Positions 24,794-33,394 of a stretch of DNA of 64,000 nt are shown one piece after another. The position numbers and the translations under genes were made by a program. Source of the DNA: Natronosalvus rutilus. GTDB lineage: Archaea > Halobacteriota > Halobacteria > Halobacteriales > Natrialbaceae. The notes beneath the pieces are model-generated. The model ran no database searches, was not told the origin of the DNA, and saw only the letters and a program-made list of their open reading frames with translations. The stretch is taken from positions 2,027,451 to 2,091,450 of the forward strand of contig NZ_CP100355.1 of assembly GCF_024204665.1 (NCBI RefSeq). Reading direction: 5' to 3'. Every line of letters starts with the position of its first letter. Position 1 is the first letter of the stretch.

Positions 24794-27700
24794 CTACGAG
24801 TCGTCGAACGACGGTGCGCATCCGAGGGACCGATGCGGACAGGTCCGACAGTGCGACCCCGGCGTCGTCTCGGCGTAGATCGGTCGATCTAGCGCCTCGA
24901 GTCCGCGTCGAACCGCCTCCCAGTCGGGCGTCGTCGACCGCGAGTGGATGGCGACCCGGGGGCCCTCGACAGGTCCGACGTACACGTAGCCGACGGCGTC
25001 GACGGGCTCGCCGAGCCGGCGTTCACAGGCCCGGGCGTACAGCGAAAGCTGGAGGGCCGCTTCGGGGTCGATCCGTTCGCTCGTCGCCTTGTAGTCGAGG
25101 ACGACGAGCCGTCCGTCGGGTGCCCGTCGGACCGTATCCACGTAGCCGACGACCGAGCCGTCGACGCCGGGCACGTCGTCGACCGTAAACGACAGTTCGG
25201 CGGCGAGTTCGTCCCACGCGTGAACCGGCGCCTCGAGGTCGGGTTCTCGAGCGTCGAAGTACCGATCGATACACCGGTGGACTTCCTTCTCGTATCCTCG
25301 TTTCCCGCGGGCCGTGAGCCGTCTGGTGGCCGCCCGACGCCACTCCCCGGGGCTCGAGTACTCCCGGTAGAACGCTTCCTCGGCCACGGCGTGAAAGACC
25401 GTGCCGACGAGTCGCGGGTTCGACTCGCGGCCCGTTCGATTGTCAGCCGGGGACGACTCGATTCGCCGTCGACTGACGTCACCCGGGACCGGATCGTCGG
25501 GCGCCCCGACGACGTACTCGAGGTAGTGCTTTCGCGGACACTCGTCGTGGGTCGCCAGCGCGCTGTAACTGTGCTCGAGTGCTTCGGGAAACCGATCGCG
25601 TCCCGACTCCGAGAACGCGTCCGGGGCGAATCGCGAAGCCGTCGTATCCAGCGCTCCGACTCGTCGCCCCGCCGGCGCGTCGAGTTCGGGGACTGTGGGG
25701 GCGGCGTCCGCAGCCGGTAGCAGCGTTCGGTTCCGAAGCTGTCGCCCGAGTCGGTGGACGACGTCGAGCGCCTCGTCCGTCTCGAGCGTCCGGTAGCCGT
25801 CGGTACCGAGGTAGTTGATCGCGCCGGTGGTGTGCGTCGACGGTTCGGCGAGCGAGTCGGTGACGTCGACGACTGTTTCGGGGTACGTTTCCTGTACCCG
25901 GTCAAACGCCGTCACCAATTCCGACCAGAGGTTCATCCGCTCGCCGGTAACCGACCACTCGATCGCGGAGGGGAGACACGCGTCGGCCGTGGGGGCGGCG
26001 AGGTCGCCGTCCCCGCCCTCGTAGTCGTAGTTCGAGCCGAATACGAGCAGGTGGTTCTCCGCCCGGGTGAGCGCGACGTGGAGAACGCGCCAGGATTCGG
26101 CCGTCGGCTCCGCGGCGAGATCCGCACACAGCGGCGAGTCGACGGTCGGGTCGAGCGTCGCGGCGAGCAGGCGATACCGGGCCCCGTAGGCGTAGTCTCG
26201 CCGAACGCACCACTCCTCGTCCGAGAGGTACGGCGCGAGGACCGTGTCGAACTCGAGGCCCTTGGCTTGGTGTACCGTCATGACGTCGACGGCGTCCGCA
26301 GACGTGGTTCCCTGTTGGCGGTCGCTCGATCCGCCCGCCAGCACCCGCTCGAGCGCGTCGACGAACCGGGTCGAGAGCGACTCGAGCACGTCGGTGCCGG
26401 TCCTGGCGTCGACGAACCGTTCGATCCGCTCGAACGTCTGGCGGTCGTCGGGACCCAGAAACCACTCGACGTTCGTTCGCTCCCGGAACTGTCGGAGAAA
26501 CGGCGCTATCGGGTAGGCGTTCTTCGCCGCCGCTAGCGCCTCGAGGTCTGTGCGCGCCCGCTCGAGTCGGTCCGGTTCGTCGAAGGGTTCGGCCTCGAGG
26601 TCGGCCTCGAACAGCGCGTCGTACAGCCGACGGTTGCGGCGGTGGAGGCGGGAGAGATCGGCTTCACGTACTCGATAACGTGTGAGAAGCACTCGTCGAA
26701 GGTGCGTGTCGGCGTCGTGATCGACTAGCACGCGGAGGTACGAGAGAACCGTCTGGGTGCCCTCCGACACGGATCCTGTCGCCGAACCCGACCGCTCGCA
26801 GGGAATCTGGCGCTGCTCGAGTTCTGCGGCGATATTGCGTGCCTGTGCGTTCGTCCGAACGATGACCGCGATGTCTTCGAGCGTTCGCTCCGGGACGGAT
26901 CCACAGTCGCCGTTCAGGAGTCGTGAAATCGCCGTCCCGACCTGTTCGGGTATCGACGACTCGAGTTCGTCGCTCTCGACTTTCAGCACCCGGTGGGGCG
27001 GGTTCGCCTCGTCGTACGACCCCTGCGTCCGTCCGTGCTCCCGGAGCGTCTTCGAGGGCTGGGTGCCGTACGAACAGTGGTTCGTCAGGTCCAGTATTTC
27101 CTGTTTCGACCGAAAGTTCAACTCGAGTTCGACCGACTCGTGGTCGTCGTAGTTCGCACCGAGGCGCTCGAGGCCCCTGGGGTCGGTCCCGCGCCAGCCG
27201 TAGATCGCCTGGTCCGTGTCCCCGATGGCGAGGAGTTCTGGTCGATCCGGGCCGCGCGTCAGTTCGGTGACGAGCGTCCACTGGGTCGCGTCGGTGTCCT
27301 GGAACTCGTCGCAGTAGACGTGGCTCCACCGGCGGGTGATCCCCTCGGCGACGGCCTCGTCTTCGAGCAGGCGCGTCGCCGTCCGAACGAGTTCGTCGAA
27401 GTCGACCGCGCCGTCGGTCTCGAGCCTCGCCCGATAGTCGGCGTATATTTCGGCGTAGTGGCTGGCCTGTCGGAGCACGGCCACGTAGTGCTCGAGTCGG
27501 CCGAACGGCGTCTGTTCGATGGTCTTCGCCCCGTCCCGCCAGAGTTCGTTGCCGAAGAGGACGGGTGGCAGGTGCTTCGTCGACGGGTCGTCGAGCGACA
27601 TCGCTTCCCGCGTTATCGTCACGCACGCCTGAAGCGTCCGGAGGTAGGCGTCGATCTCTCGCACCACCGGATCGTCGCGAAACGCCGCCGGCCCTTCGGC

Positions 27701-28426
27701 GATTTTCTCTCGACAGAACGTCAACAGCGTGCCGTACTCGACGAGCGCCTCGCGAATTTCCGTGACGTGTTCCTCCCGATTGAAGTACCGAATCGCCTCG
27801 TTGTCGAACGACAGCGCCTCTCTCGCCTCGCCGCGGAGCCACAGGAGCAGTTCCTCGAGGAGGTCGAGCATCCGTTCGTCGGGCAGGGCGTCGGAGAGGG
27901 CGTCTGGGTCGATCTCTTCGCGACTCATCACCGAGACGAAGTGGTCAACCGATCCGGCGAGCGTCGACGGAGTGGCCGATTTTGTCGGTGCCACGTCGAC
28001 CGCCGCGAAGTCGTACTCGTACTCGGCGAGGAGCCGGTTGAGTAGCCGTCGTCGCTTCCGCTCGGTGACGACCTCGAACGACGGGGAGAGCCCGAGATAG
28101 TAGGCGTACTCTCGAACCAGCCGGTAGCAAAACGAGTGATACGTGTGGACCTCGATCGCTGCGGCGACGGACGGCTCGAGTCGCTCGGCGATCGACGCTC
28201 GAATGCTCGCGGCCGCTTCGTTCGCGAACGTCACGACGAGCACGTCGGAGGGGTCGACGGCCCGGTCCTCGAGCGCCCGTTCGATCCGCGCCAGCATCGT
28301 GGTCGTCTTTCCGGTACCGGCGCCCGCGTCGACGGACGTGCACGCGGCCTCGCTCGCGATGACGGCGGGCTGATTTCCTTTCGGGGCTGGGCCCGGGGTC
28401 GACCTCGAGAGCCGGTGGTCATCCAT
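24794..28426 (-). CDS. UvrD/AddA-like helicase-nuclease with Fe-S cysteines
   Basis: A 1210-residue superfamily 1A helicase fused to a RecB-type nuclease. Helicase motifs in order: Q motif 'GNQPAVIA' (17-24), Walker A 'GAGTGKTT' (35-42), motif Ia 'VVTFANEAAASI', motif II 'YCDEFQDTD', motif III 'AIGDTDQAIYGWRG', motif IV 'LELNFRSKQEI', motif V 'VMTVHQAKGLEFDTV' and motif VI 'HVALTRAENHLLVFG'. The C-terminal third has the PD-(D/E)XK core: 'GTVFHAVAEEAFY', 'VVGYVDTV', 'LVVLDYKAT' and 'AALQLSLYARA'. An upstream 'HDECPRKHYLEYV' and the terminal C1193, C1196, C1203 suggest an iron-sulfur staple. It is the last gene of a three-gene operon, overlapping its neighbour by 8 bases. Inferred role: motor and nuclease of an AddAB-like end-resection complex. 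Confidence 0.9.
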   Translation of the reverse strand: MDDHRLSRSTPGPAPKGNQPAVIASEAACTSVDAGAGTGKTTTMLARIERALEDRAVDPSDVLVVTFANEAAASIRASIAERLEPSVAAAIEVHTYHSFCYRLVREYAYYLGLSPSFEVVTERKRRRLLNRLLAEYEYDFAAVDVAPTKSATPSTLAGSVDHFVSVMSREEIDPDALSDALPDERMLDLLEELLLWLRGEAREALSFDNEAIRYFNREEHVTEIREALVEYGTLLTFCREKIAEGPAAFRDDPVVREIDAYLRTLQACVTITREAMSLDDPSTKHLPPVLFGNELWRDGAKTIEQTPFGRLEHYVAVLRQASHYAEIYADYRARLETDGAVDFDELVRTATRLLEDEAVAEGITRRWSHVYCDEFQDTDATQWTLVTELTRGPDRPELLAIGDTDQAIYGWRGTDPRGLERLGANYDDHESVELELNFRSKQEILDLTNHCSYGTQPSKTLREHGRTQGSYDEANPPHRVLKVESDELESSIPEQVGTAISRLLNGDCGSVPERTLEDIAVIVRTNAQARNIAAELEQRQIPCERSGSATGSVSEGTQTVLSYLRVLVDHDADTHLRRVLLTRYRVREADLSRLHRRNRRLYDALFEADLEAEPFDEPDRLERARTDLEALAAAKNAYPIAPFLRQFRERTNVEWFLGPDDRQTFERIERFVDARTGTDVLESLSTRFVDALERVLAGGSSDRQQGTTSADAVDVMTVHQAKGLEFDTVLAPYLSDEEWCVRRDYAYGARYRLLAATLDPTVDSPLCADLAAEPTAESWRVLHVALTRAENHLLVFGSNYDYEGGDGDLAAPTADACLPSAIEWSVTGERMNLWSELVTAFDRVQETYPETVVDVTDSLAEPSTHTTGAINYLGTDGYRTLETDEALDVVHRLGRQLRNRTLLPAADAAPTVPELDAPAGRRVGALDTTASRFAPDAFSESGRDRFPEALEHSYSALATHDECPRKHYLEYVVGAPDDPVPGDVSRRRIESSPADNRTGRESNPRLVGTVFHAVAEEAFYREYSSPGEWRRAATRRLTARGKRGYEKEVHRCIDRYFDAREPDLEAPVHAWDELAAELSFTVDDVPGVDGSVVGYVDTVRRAPDGRLVVLDYKATSERIDPEAALQLSLYARACERRLGEPVDAVGYVYVGPVEGPRVAIHSRSTTPDWEAVRRGLEALDRPIYAETTPGSHCRTCPHRSLGCAPSFDDS

Positions 28427-29495
28427 CGAAAGCCACCTCGCTCGAGAGGTATTTCGTACAGCAAACGGCGTACGGACACGTCGGGCAGACGTCGCGCTTG
28501 ATCTGGTCCCACCGGGATTCGAACGCTTCGTCGTCGACTCCGGCGATGGCGGCGGTCGCCACCTGTCGCAACCGATCGTCGACGGTCTGGTTTCGGTGTT
28601 CGTGTGTCATCCCGAACGTGTGATGGTCCAGGTAGGGTTCGGTGAGATCCACCGGCTCGAGGCTCGTTTCGACGCGCTCGCGAAGCGGGTTGACGGTCAG
28701 CCGGTCCCGATCGAGGACCGGGACCTGGACGTACCGACAGGTACGGGCGTCCGTGAGGGACAGGCGGTCACGAAGCGTCCGCAATCCATCGAGAGCGGCA
28801 GCCGTCTCGAGCAGGGTGGCGACCATTTCGGGGGCGAAATCGGCCCGGTCTGGATCGAAGTGTCCGGCGAACCGATCGGCGACGTCGCCGTCCCACGCGG
28901 CTCGATAGCGAAGTATCCCCAGGTGAGCGGCGGTCGGGACGAACCGAACCCCGACGAACGACGAGCCCTCGAGGACGGCGTAATCGATCGGCACATCGAT
29001 CTGGAGCGGGGAGGCCTCGTCGTCATCAGCCGTCGGTCGAGTCGCCATCACCGTCGATCGAAGCGGTAAATCTGGACCGACGAGTTCGCCGTCGGCGCCG
29101 CTCGCCCTGGTGGCGTACAGGCACTCGGCGTGGTCGGTACCGATGACCTCGACGTACGCCCGGATCGTCGCCTCGAGCACTCGACGCTCGTGTCGTCGCT
29201 GGGCACGTGAGTGGACTCCCTCGCCGTAGTCCGCCCAGCGGTCGGCGAACCGGTCCAGCGCACGCGCCTCGAGCGTGTCGACGTCCCCCGCACGAAGGGC
29301 ATCACAGATGGCCGTTCGGAGCAACTCGAGTCGGGCCGTCTGCGGAACGTCGTCGCCCGTGTGCAGGCCGTACTCGTGGGCGTATCGGTACCGTTGCGGA
29401 CACCGGAGGTGGGTTCGCACGCCGTCGATCGAAATCTGTGGGGCCTCGGCGCTCGATGGCGTCGTCGCGTCGGTCTCGGTGAAGTTCCCCGTCAT
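28419..29495 (-). CDS. Fe-S-staple PD-(D/E)XK-like protein, probable split AddB nuclease domain
   Basis: A 358-residue protein starting MTGNFTETDATTPSS at 29495; an in-frame extension upstream to 30026 lies within the neighbouring gene and is rejected. The N-terminal 'THLRCPQRYRYAHEYGL' has C32, and the end has 'DVCPTCPYAVCC' with C337, C340 and C346. This C...CxxCx5C pattern is the iron-sulfur staple of AddB and Cas4 nucleases. The core catalytic region looks altered: 'QIDVPIDYAVLEGSSFVGVR' keeps the Asp but has VGVRF where a V-D-Y-K type motif is expected. It may therefore be a structural or DNA-recognising domain. It overlaps the upstream AddB-like gene by ATGA (4 bases) and the helicase by 8 bases. 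The assignment as a detached AddB C-terminus is inference from order, size and staple. Confidence 0.75.
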   Translation of the reverse strand: MTGNFTETDATTPSSAEAPQISIDGVRTHLRCPQRYRYAHEYGLHTGDDVPQTARLELLRTAICDALRAGDVDTLEARALDRFADRWADYGEGVHSRAQRRHERRVLEATIRAYVEVIGTDHAECLYATRASGADGELVGPDLPLRSTVMATRPTADDDEASPLQIDVPIDYAVLEGSSFVGVRFVPTAAHLGILRYRAAWDGDVADRFAGHFDPDRADFAPEMVATLLETAAALDGLRTLRDRLSLTDARTCRYVQVPVLDRDRLTVNPLRERVETSLEPVDLTEPYLDHHTFGMTHEHRNQTVDDRLRQVATAAIAGVDDEAFESRWDQIKRDVCPTCPYAVCCTKYLSSEVAFDG

Positions 29496-31774
29496 CGGCT
29501 TACCTCCCCCGCTGCAAACTCGAACTGCGTGTACACGGCGTCCCGGATCGTCTCGTCGACGTCTTCGTGCTCCAGGGCGAGGGCGAGCTCCTGGATTCGC
29601 TCCGCCGTGGCATCGAGGTCGACGGGTTCGCCTATCGACGCACGGCCCAGGAGTGTCTCGAGATCGGTCCAGGGCACCTCGAGAGCGGCTTCGAGGGTTC
29701 GTTGCCGCCCGTAGCTGACGTGGTCTCGGCGTTTCACGTTGACTGGCTCGAGATCGATCCCGGGCATAACTGTGAGTTCGCGAACGAATCGGGACTCGTC
29801 GTGGGTTCGTCGGAGGCCCTCGGTTTCGCGCTCGTACGAACAGCAGTAGAGCCGGGTCCGGGCTGCCCGAGAACCGAGAGCGAGACGTCGACGTGCCCGT
29901 TCGGCGTGATATGTCTCGAAGCGATCGGCAACGGCCGACCCGTCCGTGACCGTGGCGAACGTCTCCTCGAGCGTCGATGAGGAGGGGTCGGTCACGGCGG
30001 GGTAGGACGGCATCGAACGAAGCCACGCCGTCGGAAACAGCGGCGTGAGAAACTGCGTCCCGGGGTAAGTGTCGTCGATCAGATCAACCAGGAACACGAC
30101 CTCCCGCGAGTCGTACGCCAGTTCATCGACCGGACAGACGGTCACCCCACCGCCCGGTGCTCGCGTCTCGATGGCGTGGACGTGCGGGGCGTCGTACTCG
30201 ATCGTTCGCTGGAGCATTCGTCGGAGGCCCTGCCAGTCGGGGGCGACGAGGTCCGTCCGCTCGACGAACCGGGCGATTTCGAGGACCCGGCGGATGCTCT
30301 GAAACTGCTCGCGGGCGTCGATCCACGGTTCGTCGCGGGCGATGCGCGCCTTCACGTTCGTTCGCTGGATCCACGACTCGAGTGCGGTCGTCACCGACTG
30401 CCCGTGGGCGGCTTCGACGTCCCGCGGAGAAAATTCCTCGATGCGGGCTTCGAGTCTGGCGGTGACGGGTTCGGCTATCTCGGTCGGGTCGTGTCCCTGC
30501 TCGAGAGTACAGTGCGCTTCGATGACGGCGTAGAGTTCGCTAACGGCGGGATCGTCCGCCAGGGAGGGCGTACCGATCGTAGCCGTGGGAACGCCCACGT
30601 CGCGAAGGAGCCGTCGCGTCCGGGGAACGTGTTCCGCTCGTGGGACGGCGACCGCGAACTCGTCGAACGACCAGTCGAATCGGTCGCGGAGAGACTGGAT
30701 TTCGCTGGCGACCCACCGCACCTGCGCTCGAGCGGTTTCCGTTCGGAGTCGGTACGCTCGAGCAGTCGTGTGCTCGTCTTCGTTCTCCTCTTTTCGTTCG
30801 TTCTCCTCCCCGCGCTCGTCTTCGGCTTCGTCGTCCTCCTCGTGCTCACCCTCGTGCACGGCTTCGGAATACTGGTCGTGATCGTTCTCGCCGACCGTTC
30901 CAGTCGCCAGCACTCGAGTGATCGCGTCGTGGGCTGGCTTCGATTCGGGTTGTCGCGTCGGCGGCCGGACCTCGAGGCCGTCCGCGATCGATTCGAGCGA
31001 ACCTGGTTCGACTCGCGTCCGCTCGACGCTCGCGTGGCGCTGGCCGACGCAGACGAGGTCGGCCTCCCCGGTCAGCGCTGCGAGATAGCGCCTGTCGAGG
31101 CGGCGAAACTCCTCGAACTGTACGGCGAGAACGGCGTCGAACGAGTCCGTGGTCCGTTCGCGGAGGCCGTCAGCGTCGGCCTCGAGCAGGTCGACCACTC
31201 GCGGGATCACGTCTGCCCGTTCGACGAAGCCTCGAGAGTCGAGTTCGTCGTGGAACCGGTCGTTCATCGCGTAGAGGAAGGCGAGACAGGGGTGGATGGC
31301 GTCCCCGTCTCGATCCCCCGTGGCGTCGAACTGTTGTCGGGTCGCCTCGAGCAACAACCGTCCGACGTCGCGGGCGAAACTGTCGTGCTCGCTCGCGCGT
31401 TCGAGGTACGGCGGCACGTCAAGACTCGCGCCGGCGACGACCAGCGAAATGAGTTCGATCCGTTCTTCGTACTCGAGGCGCTCGAGTGTCGGGTCGTAGG
31501 TCTCGAGGACTTTCGAGGCGTGCTCGGGAAGTGATTCGACTCGCGGGCCGCTGACGGCGTTCCGGGCCGCGTTTGGGTCGTCTATCGTCTCGAGAAGGAC
31601 TCGCTCGAGGCGGTCGAACCCCGCCGGGTGGCGCTTGAGGACGAGGACGTTTTTCGATCCGTGGGACTCGACGAGCGCGGCGTACTCGTCGGCGACGCGC
31701 TCGAGGAGGTCGTGGCGAGGGTACGGGAGGGCGACGAGCGTCCCCTCGAGCGTCGGGGACTCGGGTGTCGGCAT
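29492..31774 (-). CDS. AddB-like helicase-fold subunit without ATP site
   Basis: A 760-residue protein, first gene of the repair operon. It has no Walker A lysine motif. It does show AddB-like landmarks: 'SFDAVLAVQFEEFRRLDRRY' then 'ADLVCVG' (residues 211-244) match the motif II/III-equivalent strand 'v.vdGF.dF...'. 'EVVFLVDLIDDTYPGTQFLT' matches the late 'GLneG.fP' strand, and 'RRLALGSRAARTRLYCCSYE' resembles an inactive motif VI. Residues 308-335 are an Asp/Glu-rich insert, probably a halophilic loop. With the next gene it sums to 1118 residues, close to a bacterial AddB (about 1150). AddB proteins hold an inactive helicase that scans for the recombination hotspot. Function is inferred by this architecture; sequence similarity is weak by eye. 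Confidence 0.68.
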   Translation of the reverse strand: MPTPESPTLEGTLVALPYPRHDLLERVADEYAALVESHGSKNVLVLKRHPAGFDRLERVLLETIDDPNAARNAVSGPRVESLPEHASKVLETYDPTLERLEYEERIELISLVVAGASLDVPPYLERASEHDSFARDVGRLLLEATRQQFDATGDRDGDAIHPCLAFLYAMNDRFHDELDSRGFVERADVIPRVVDLLEADADGLRERTTDSFDAVLAVQFEEFRRLDRRYLAALTGEADLVCVGQRHASVERTRVEPGSLESIADGLEVRPPTRQPESKPAHDAITRVLATGTVGENDHDQYSEAVHEGEHEEDDEAEDERGEENERKEENEDEHTTARAYRLRTETARAQVRWVASEIQSLRDRFDWSFDEFAVAVPRAEHVPRTRRLLRDVGVPTATIGTPSLADDPAVSELYAVIEAHCTLEQGHDPTEIAEPVTARLEARIEEFSPRDVEAAHGQSVTTALESWIQRTNVKARIARDEPWIDAREQFQSIRRVLEIARFVERTDLVAPDWQGLRRMLQRTIEYDAPHVHAIETRAPGGGVTVCPVDELAYDSREVVFLVDLIDDTYPGTQFLTPLFPTAWLRSMPSYPAVTDPSSSTLEETFATVTDGSAVADRFETYHAERARRRLALGSRAARTRLYCCSYERETEGLRRTHDESRFVRELTVMPGIDLEPVNVKRRDHVSYGRQRTLEAALEVPWTDLETLLGRASIGEPVDLDATAERIQELALALEHEDVDETIRDAVYTQFEFAAGEVSR

Positions 31775-31850
31775 TGCGGTATGCCACGGAGTAGTGACTG
31801 TATGGTACTTAAACCTGTACCCGACGTGGCCGGTTACTGGCTTCTCTGGC

Positions 31851-32489: not shown

Positions 32490-32888
32490 ATGGACGACAT
32501 TTTCGTTGCCAGATTAATGAGTTCGGATCTCGTAACAGTCGCACCCGACACCCTCGTCGAGAACGCCGGCCAGACGATACTCGAGAACTGCATTAGCTCA
32601 CTCGTCGTCGTTGACGACGACGGACGCCTCGAGGGAATCCTGACGACGACCGACTTCGTCACGATCGTCGCCGAGAGTTTCCCGAAAGCGGAGACGACCG
32701 TCGAACGCTACATGACGACCGACGTCGTGACCGTCTCACCCCAGCAGCCGATCACCGAGGTGGCGAACGTGATGCTCGAACATGGGGTCCACCATCTGCC
32801 GGTCGTCGACGAGGACGAGGGCGTCGTCGGTATCGTCACGACGACCGATCTGGCGGGGTACCTGACGACGATGCGGGCGTCGGTGTAG
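32490..32888 (+). CDS. Stand-alone CBS-domain pair protein
   Basis: A 132-residue protein that is only two CBS motifs (one Bateman module). Copy 1: 'LMSSDLVTVAPDTLVENAGQ' to 'LEGILTTTDFVTIV'. Copy 2: 'YMTTDVVTVSPQQPITEVAN' to 'VVGIVTTTDLAGYL'. Bateman modules bind adenosine nucleotides such as AMP, ATP or SAM and regulate partners. There is no fused enzyme, so it acts in trans. Haloarchaea carry many such short paralogues. It is a single-gene unit with its own TATA box. Confidence 0.88.
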   Translation: MDDIFVARLMSSDLVTVAPDTLVENAGQTILENCISSLVVVDDDGRLEGILTTTDFVTIVAESFPKAETTVERYMTTDVVTVSPQQPITEVANVMLEHGVHHLPVVDEDEGVVGIVTTTDLAGYLTTMRASV

Positions 32889-33322
32889 GTACTGTACTGG
32901 TCGATTTGGCCACACAGAGAACGTATTTCTACGACTCGAGAAGATGGCAAGCGTCGTGCTCGAGAATCGATAGTCGAGACTCAACGCAGTCGCCAGTCGG
33001 CCCAACGCTGCCCGTGTCTTCGTGAACCTGAACACCGCGTAGACGCCCCGAAACTTCCGTTCGTCGATCCCGTTCTGTCGTCTTACTCGCGGATTTGCTA
33101 TACTGTTATGTGGTTTATTCACGTCTCGAGAAGTCGAAACTGCCAGTTCAGCGTTGAATATGGAATTCGAGACCCCGTACACTCGCGGAGTCAACTAGAC
33201 GATCGAAAGAGAGCGCGGCTCCGATCACGCAGATAGTACGACGACGGACGTTCACTCGCGACGGGCACCGCTCACCCGATTCGAACCTGTCGCTCGTTCG
33301 TTCTGACGTTCGAACAGAAAGA
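32889..33322. other. Intergenic region between the CBS gene and tRNA-Thr
   Basis: About 430 bases with no supported gene. A minus-strand open frame around 32940-33150 reads somewhat like protein ('RFTKTRAALGRLATALSLD') but has no known family and no clear start. A/T-rich 'gctatactgttatgtggtttattc' parts near 33095-33120 may hold promoter elements, although the tRNA gene is read from the other side. Confidence 0.3.
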
Positions 33323-33394
33323 GCCAGTAGAGGGATTTGAACCCTCGACCTAATCCTTACGAAGGATTCGCTCTGCCAGCTGAGCTATACTGGC
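33323..33394 (-). tRNA. tRNA-Thr (anticodon CGU)
   Basis: On the minus strand a 72-nt cloverleaf folds. The acceptor stem pairs GCCAGTA (33394-33388) with TACTGGC (33329-33323). The D arm is 'agctcagctggcagagc'. The anticodon stem aatcc/ggatt encloses the loop ttcgtaa, giving anticodon CGU for ACG codons. The T arm is 'gagggttcaaatccctc'. There is no intron and CCA is not encoded. Identity as threonine comes from the anticodon. Confidence 0.95.

Follow-up and report, generated by a model that had tools for sequence, protein, structure and literature searches.

A conserved haloarchaeal three-gene operon that resembles AddAB with AddB divided between two proteins

We have analysed a 64,000-nucleotide stretch of the genome of Natronosalvus rutilus, a haloarchaeon of the Natrialbaceae (the window), and find in it a three-gene operon, P1-P2-P3, that reads as an AddAB-type helicase-nuclease in which P1 and P2 would together correspond to AddB and P3 to AddA. 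This family assignment, made by profile comparison, is well supported. We put at roughly 0.7 the probability that the three proteins make up a three-subunit, single-motor, single-nuclease DNA-end helicase-nuclease of the AddAB/RecBC kind, descended from an AddAB-type ancestor.

Results

Organization and conservation of the operon

The three genes lie on one strand and overlap by 4 bp (P1/P2) and 8 bp (P2/P3) in the ORFs of the window; the coordinates, lengths, strand and overlaps given for them in an earlier note on this DNA are correct. The operon and its immediate surroundings are as follows.

29492-31774, minus strand: P1, 760 aa, first gene of the trio; predicted SF1A (UvrD-like) helicase that is inactive and corresponds to AddB's N-terminal half (profiles, AF2, Foldseek)
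28419-29495, minus strand: P2, 358 aa, second gene; predicted PD-(D/E)XK pseudonuclease with an iron staple, corresponding to AddB's C-terminal half (PF12705, hhalign, AF2, Foldseek)
24794-28426, minus strand: P3, 1210 aa, third gene; AddA-like helicase of the UvrD type, with a RecB-family nuclease at its C terminus and its own cysteine staple
31806-31813, minus strand: TATA-like TTTAAGTA, about 35 nt 5' of the P1 start
32490-32888, plus strand: CBS-domain gene, divergent from the trio

The TATA-like element may be the archaeal promoter of the operon. No RecD (SF1B) gene is present within the operon. The sole RNA gene found in the window, a tRNA-Thr (CGT) at 33321-33394 on the minus strand, lies about 1.5 kb from the operon.

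All of approximately 130 complete haloarchaeal loci have the genes in the order P1-P2-P3, with overlapping or near-abutting junctions; order and junctions were kept in 33/33 loci of a first set, to which some 100 were added later. P1 and P2 are two ORFs in every one of these loci and are never fused. Across 13 close pairs, dN/dS lies between 0.09 and 0.34 for P1, P2 and P3, which indicates purifying selection on each gene. Since order and junctions are conserved and all three genes show such low ratios, the trio is not a chance arrangement, and the co-occurrence survey proposed in the earlier note found it intact throughout these haloarchaeal loci.

Searches for P1 gave matches in 31 of 61 near relatives and in 106 of 292 haloarchaeal genomes. 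Within the Natrialbaceae it is present in 64 of 74 genomes (53 of them above 1000 bits, counted by hand from the listing), and the trio is near-core in this family; it is not strictly essential, since ten of the 74 genomes have no P1. The divergent CBS-domain gene is found near 42 of 66 window-type loci and marks a recurring chromosomal site, with no claim that it belongs to the machine; gltB does not generally accompany the trio.

P3 is the predicted sole motor and, in the window clade, the only intact nuclease

The following features of P3 are all kept in the homologues aligned.

28301-28324, minus strand: Walker A, GAGTGKTT (residues 35-42); no second P-loop was found among the three proteins
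25088-25096, minus strand: intact nuclease motif D1111-Y-K1113 (127/127 sequences)
24818-24850, minus strand: second cysteine staple of the operon, C1193-xx-C1196-x6-C1203, with its partner C963 at 25538-25540 (127/127)

Pfam recognizes both the N- and C-terminal UvrD domains in P3 (UvrD-helicase, 2.1e-53) together with a PDDEXK_1 nuclease (1.6e-24), and hhalign matches it to archaeal AddA with E=9.1e-75. The P3 motor scores higher with archaeal AddA (537) than with the UvrD-Cas4-like set. A phmmer search of the PDB with the P3 nuclease domain yielded no informative match. Walker A, DEFQD/DEYQD, GDxDQ and the motif VI arginine are kept in 127/127 sequences, as are the nuclease positions H1012, D1097, D1111-Y-K1113, Q1126 and Y1130, in agreement with the earlier description of the third gene as a complete UvrD/AddA helicase with a RecB nuclease. 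That description had missed the invariant cysteine staple of P3; a search of the archaeal AddA set for a CxxC...C motif found none. Against the curated AddA/AddB models P3 reached 144.6 bits, below the cut-off of 707.65. The NCBIfam AddA and AddB cut-offs (TIGR02785, TIGR02773) were reached by no protein of the trio, and the genome itself has no match to the addB model.

Two clades and their Argonaute neighbourhoods

In a tree of the P3 sequences only, loci with a dead P2 (window-type) and loci with an active P2 (the sister clade) form one clade each, with support of 97 and 100, so that a single change suffices to explain the distribution; this is a fast tree with several long branches and outgroup rooting, and should be read with caution. 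Loci of the sister clade are often plasmid-borne, and relatives of P1 are present in 16 plasmid records; a search of viral contigs with P1 gave no relative. Public PLSDB records (H1-H8, H11-H13 and H15) annotate the sister-clade P1 as 'DNA helicase UvrD', which is contradicted by the missing P-loop of the family. A lone P1 fragment (about 310 aa, with neither P2 nor P3), on the 431 kb plasmid NC_012030.1 of Halorubrum lacusprofundi (306936-307844, locus L190), is a decayed trio.

Among 38 sister-type loci, eight have a pAgo gene (approximately 890 aa) followed by a PLD gene directly before P1; a ninth shows a distant match to pAgo, and in five others a PLD gene or its remnant is present. The five-gene clusters (L145, L146, L149, L153, L158, L161, L168 and L171) come from several haloarchaeal families, their Argonaute lies about 5 kb before P1, and the PLD gene is truncated in L168. 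A survey of the class found that all ten genomes with a pAgo at least 86% identical carry the trio, nine of them on the same contig at a distance of about 2.2 kb, and an eleventh genome has pAgo fragments beside its trio. These loci are related and do not represent independent events. They match the APAP Argonaute-PLD system, whose authors noted just 'a helicase-encoding gene' as a neighbour (PMC11442185). A different pAgo (about 33% identical) directly adjoins fused AddB-AddA genes at L228:4807-14483, L229:5780-15438 and L231:5814-15378, and at L230:4040-17884 a PLD-like gene lies between the two; the link between Argonaute and AddAB thus appears to recur.

These neighbourhoods, the plasmid records, the ten pAgo-bearing genomes and the second pAgo type beside fused AddAB would all fit a trio that acts mainly as an anti-invader helicase-nuclease in every clade, the window's included. 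We consider this the less likely reading. Neither pAgo nor PLD adjoins any of the 66 window-type loci, no related pAgo was matched in the window genome, and the trios of the window type belong to the near-core gene set of one family and have the CBS-domain gene as a recurring neighbour, which suggests resection/repair or general DNA degradation rather than accessory defence. The earlier note had proposed an archaeal AddAB-type complex for end processing or defence; the AddAB type is borne out by the profiles, while a link to defence was seen only in the sister clade.

P1 is a predicted inactive helicase that matches the N-terminal half of AddB

Scanned one by one with Pfam, NCBIfam and PADLOC, P1 had no meaningful match and P2 only matches below threshold, so that family profiles were needed. 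A profile of 33 P1 members searched against the PDB gave AddB (3U44_B) as the top sequence match (E=9.6e-6). With hhalign, P1 aligned to columns 51-616 of the fused archaeal AddB alignment with a probability of 98.9 (E=1e-17), and to the archaeal AddB N-terminal half alone with a probability of 99.0 (E=2.3e-18, score 157). The scores were 66 for AddA (E=6e-7), 88 for the UvrD-Cas4-like family and 86 for P3, and the unrelated control gltB gave no match.

The AF2 model of P1 (pLDDT 85.1) has an SF1A helicase fold, and Foldseek matches it to UvrD, AddB and AdnB; the structural check suggested in the earlier note therefore returned a helicase of the expected kind and not an unrelated fold. By E-value UvrD, Rep and PcrA come ahead of AddB, whereas by query TM-score (0.57) AddB and AdnB lead. 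Since Foldseek alone cannot separate AddB from UvrD here, the AddB assignment rests on the profiles. P1 has no Walker A, just as the earlier note had read it, no homologue carries a P-loop at the motif I position, and Pfam detects no nuclease domain. Residues 296-336 or so (30767-30889, minus strand) form a highly acidic, low-confidence linker, EGEHEEDDEAEDERGEENERKEENEDEH.

These Foldseek E-values, and some P1 homologues whose weak Rep/UvrD matches equal their weak AddB matches, are what one would expect if P1 were a separately degenerated UvrD paralogue that had become associated with a Cas4-like protein and an AddA-like helicase and so converged on the AddAB plan. Such an origin seems improbable, because P1 scores 157 against the AddB N-terminal half and at most 88 against AddA, the UvrD-Cas4-like family and P3, and because P2, as described below, indicates AddB independently.

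P2 keeps a putative iron-staple fold and has lost its nuclease site in the window clade

Two stretches of P2 need to be distinguished.

28458-28487, minus strand: staple C337-xx-C340-x5-C346, with its partner C32 at 29400-29402
28938-28985, minus strand: degenerate nuclease core, residues 171-186, in which D171 is kept and the D-x-K positions read R184 and V186

All 33 aligned P2 homologues match PF12705. With hhalign, P2 aligned to AddB columns 764-1067 (E=1.1e-7), scoring 69 against the AddB C-terminal half and about 30 or less against the nuclease domains of AddA, the UvrD-Cas4-like family and P3. Its AF2 model (pLDDT 89.5) gives AdnA, AddB and the Cas4 protein SSO0001 as top Foldseek matches, at E-values of only 5e-3 to 1e-2 with probabilities of 0.97-1.0. 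With AddB halves as the best profile matches of both P1 and P2, the comparison agrees with the proposal that genes 1 and 2 are one AddB that has been split.

The four cysteines C32, C337, C340 and C346, from which the earlier note had read an iron-sulfur staple, show no variation in the alignments of 33 and of 72 sequences and are kept in 130/131 overall. The same note had taken P2 to be a staple nuclease; the staple is there, but five of the six catalytic positions are gone in the window, with H replaced by R60, D by R184, K by V186, Q by E230 and Y by A234. The RecB-family motif is lost in 86/86 window-type P2 proteins, the first D (D171) being the sole catalytic position retained, while in the sister clade all six positions (H, D, D, K, Q, Y) are kept in 44-45 of 45 sequences. 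Judged by its residues, the P2 of the window clade is a dead nuclease in a RecC-like state that retains its putative iron-sulfur cysteines.

The invariance of D171 and the preserved fold could be taken to mean that P2 has retained nuclease activity at an active site that has moved. This is very doubtful, as the motif-I His, the motif-III Asp and Lys and the QxxxY residues are replaced in the window by R, R, V, E and A, and no conserved acidic/lysine pair stands in for them. That P2 is being lost by decay, as its catalytic loss and the lowest identity of the three proteins might hint, can practically be dismissed, since it is present in every complete window-type locus with invariant cysteines and a dN/dS of 0.11-0.34.

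Comparison with fused archaeal AddAB and other helicase-nucleases

Searches with TIGR02773 and follow-up searches revealed a fused AddB of about 1040-1130 aa, with DYK present, whose gene overlaps or abuts that of AddA in other haloarchaea and in other archaea of the phylum; in the haloarchaeal set its cysteine staple is readily recognized. Archaeal AddAB is therefore diverse, with the split form as one of its variants, and the reading of the trio as the archaeal AddAB was sound in its AddAB likeness but incomplete, as ordinary fused AddAB also occurs in archaea. The haloarchaeal AddB profile matches 67 of 292 haloarchaeal genomes. Replacement of the trio and fused AddAB by one another was considered and rejected, since the two (106/292 and 67/292) co-occur at about the chance level in a hand comparison. 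Two non-haloarchaeal loci (L199:8506-15009 and L200:9174-15663) encode a UvrD-Cas4-like protein followed by a protein of about 1100 aa without a P-loop; the latter was tried as an unsplit homologue and rejected, as hhalign detected no resemblance to either P1 or P2.

The fused archaeal AddAB (L212-L223) shares with the trio its phylum, the domain plan, the position of the AddB gene before the AddA gene and, in the haloarchaeal set, the CxxCx5C staple spacing; it differs in that AddB is one chain with an intact DYK and that no CxxC...C staple was found in AddA. Bacterial AddAB of the Bacillus subtilis type likewise joins an SF1A motor-nuclease to an adjacent inactive-helicase/iron-staple partner, the best profile match of P1 and P2. 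In the trio, however, that partner is two proteins with a dead nuclease in the window clade, the AddA-like subunit has a cysteine staple of its own, and the NCBIfam AddA/AddB cut-offs are not reached. The RecB-RecC part of RecBCD resembles the trio in its single intact nuclease and in a RecC-like part inactive in both helicase and nuclease domains, but the trio operon has no RecD, spreads the RecC-like function over two proteins and retains the cysteine staples.

Mycobacterial AdnAB is also a pair of SF1-type helicase-nucleases, in which AdnA and AdnB each combine a helicase and a nuclease domain in a single chain. Foldseek ranks AdnA first for P2, yet P1 has neither a P-loop nor a nuclease domain. 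In the UvrD-Cas4 fusion family a UvrD motor is joined, as in P3, to a cysteine-bearing Cas4-like nuclease, and its members occur stand-alone or in restriction-modification contexts (PMC5704561); P3, in contrast, is accompanied by P1 and P2, and its motor is nearer archaeal AddA. With the APAP system (PMC11442185) part of the sister-clade trios share one run with the pAgo and PLD genes, which are absent beside window-type trios. No paper describing the split AddB form was found in a search of the literature outside subscription journals, which is weak evidence for novelty.

Discussion

We propose that the AddB of an AddAB-type ancestor became two polypeptides. P3 would then be the sole motor and sole intact nuclease, in the role of AddA or RecB, and P1 an ATPase-dead helicase scaffold that may guide or scan a strand, in the role of the AddB N-terminal half or RecC. 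The P2 of the window clade, its catalysis lost, probably serves in end binding or strand guiding, like the dead nuclease domain of RecC. Such a complex would unwind double-strand ends and leave the strands to be degraded by the P3 nuclease alone, in a RecBC-like mode. In bacterial AddAB there is one SF1A motor, the AddA nuclease acts on the 3' strand and the AddB nuclease on the 5' strand (PMC4824097), and the dead nuclease domain of RecC has turned into a non-catalytic strand hoop (PMC1185551). From this division of strands, the RecC precedent and the dead P2, the window complex is expected to use one nuclease.

A broader and more tentative scenario, to which we give somewhat less than even odds, is that an AddAB ancestor gave rise to a haloarchaeal three-protein RecBC-like machine, that one lineage exchanged the second nuclease for a purely structural iron-sulfur subunit, and that the nuclease-intact form was recruited to Argonaute immunity, perhaps for unwinding invader DNA or producing guide fragments.

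End resection in Haloferax has been credited to Rad50-Mre11 in a review that reports HerA-NurA to be absent there (PMC7776575). Our search for NurA gave a match above the Pfam cut-off in the window genome (C1:3681376-3682314), and the control of the same search was also positive in Haloferax volcanii, in contrast to that report. With haloarchaeal end resection unsettled, a Natrialbaceae complex of the AddAB/RecBC type would be a candidate archaeal end-processing machine. A dead P2 with intact cysteines would further uncouple the staple's structural role from catalysis in a naturally occurring enzyme. In the sister clade, the unnamed 'helicase' beside haloarchaeal Argonautes is, by its sequence, predicted to be a complete helicase-nuclease, and the trio may thus offer a possible answer to how these Argonautes reach double-stranded DNA.
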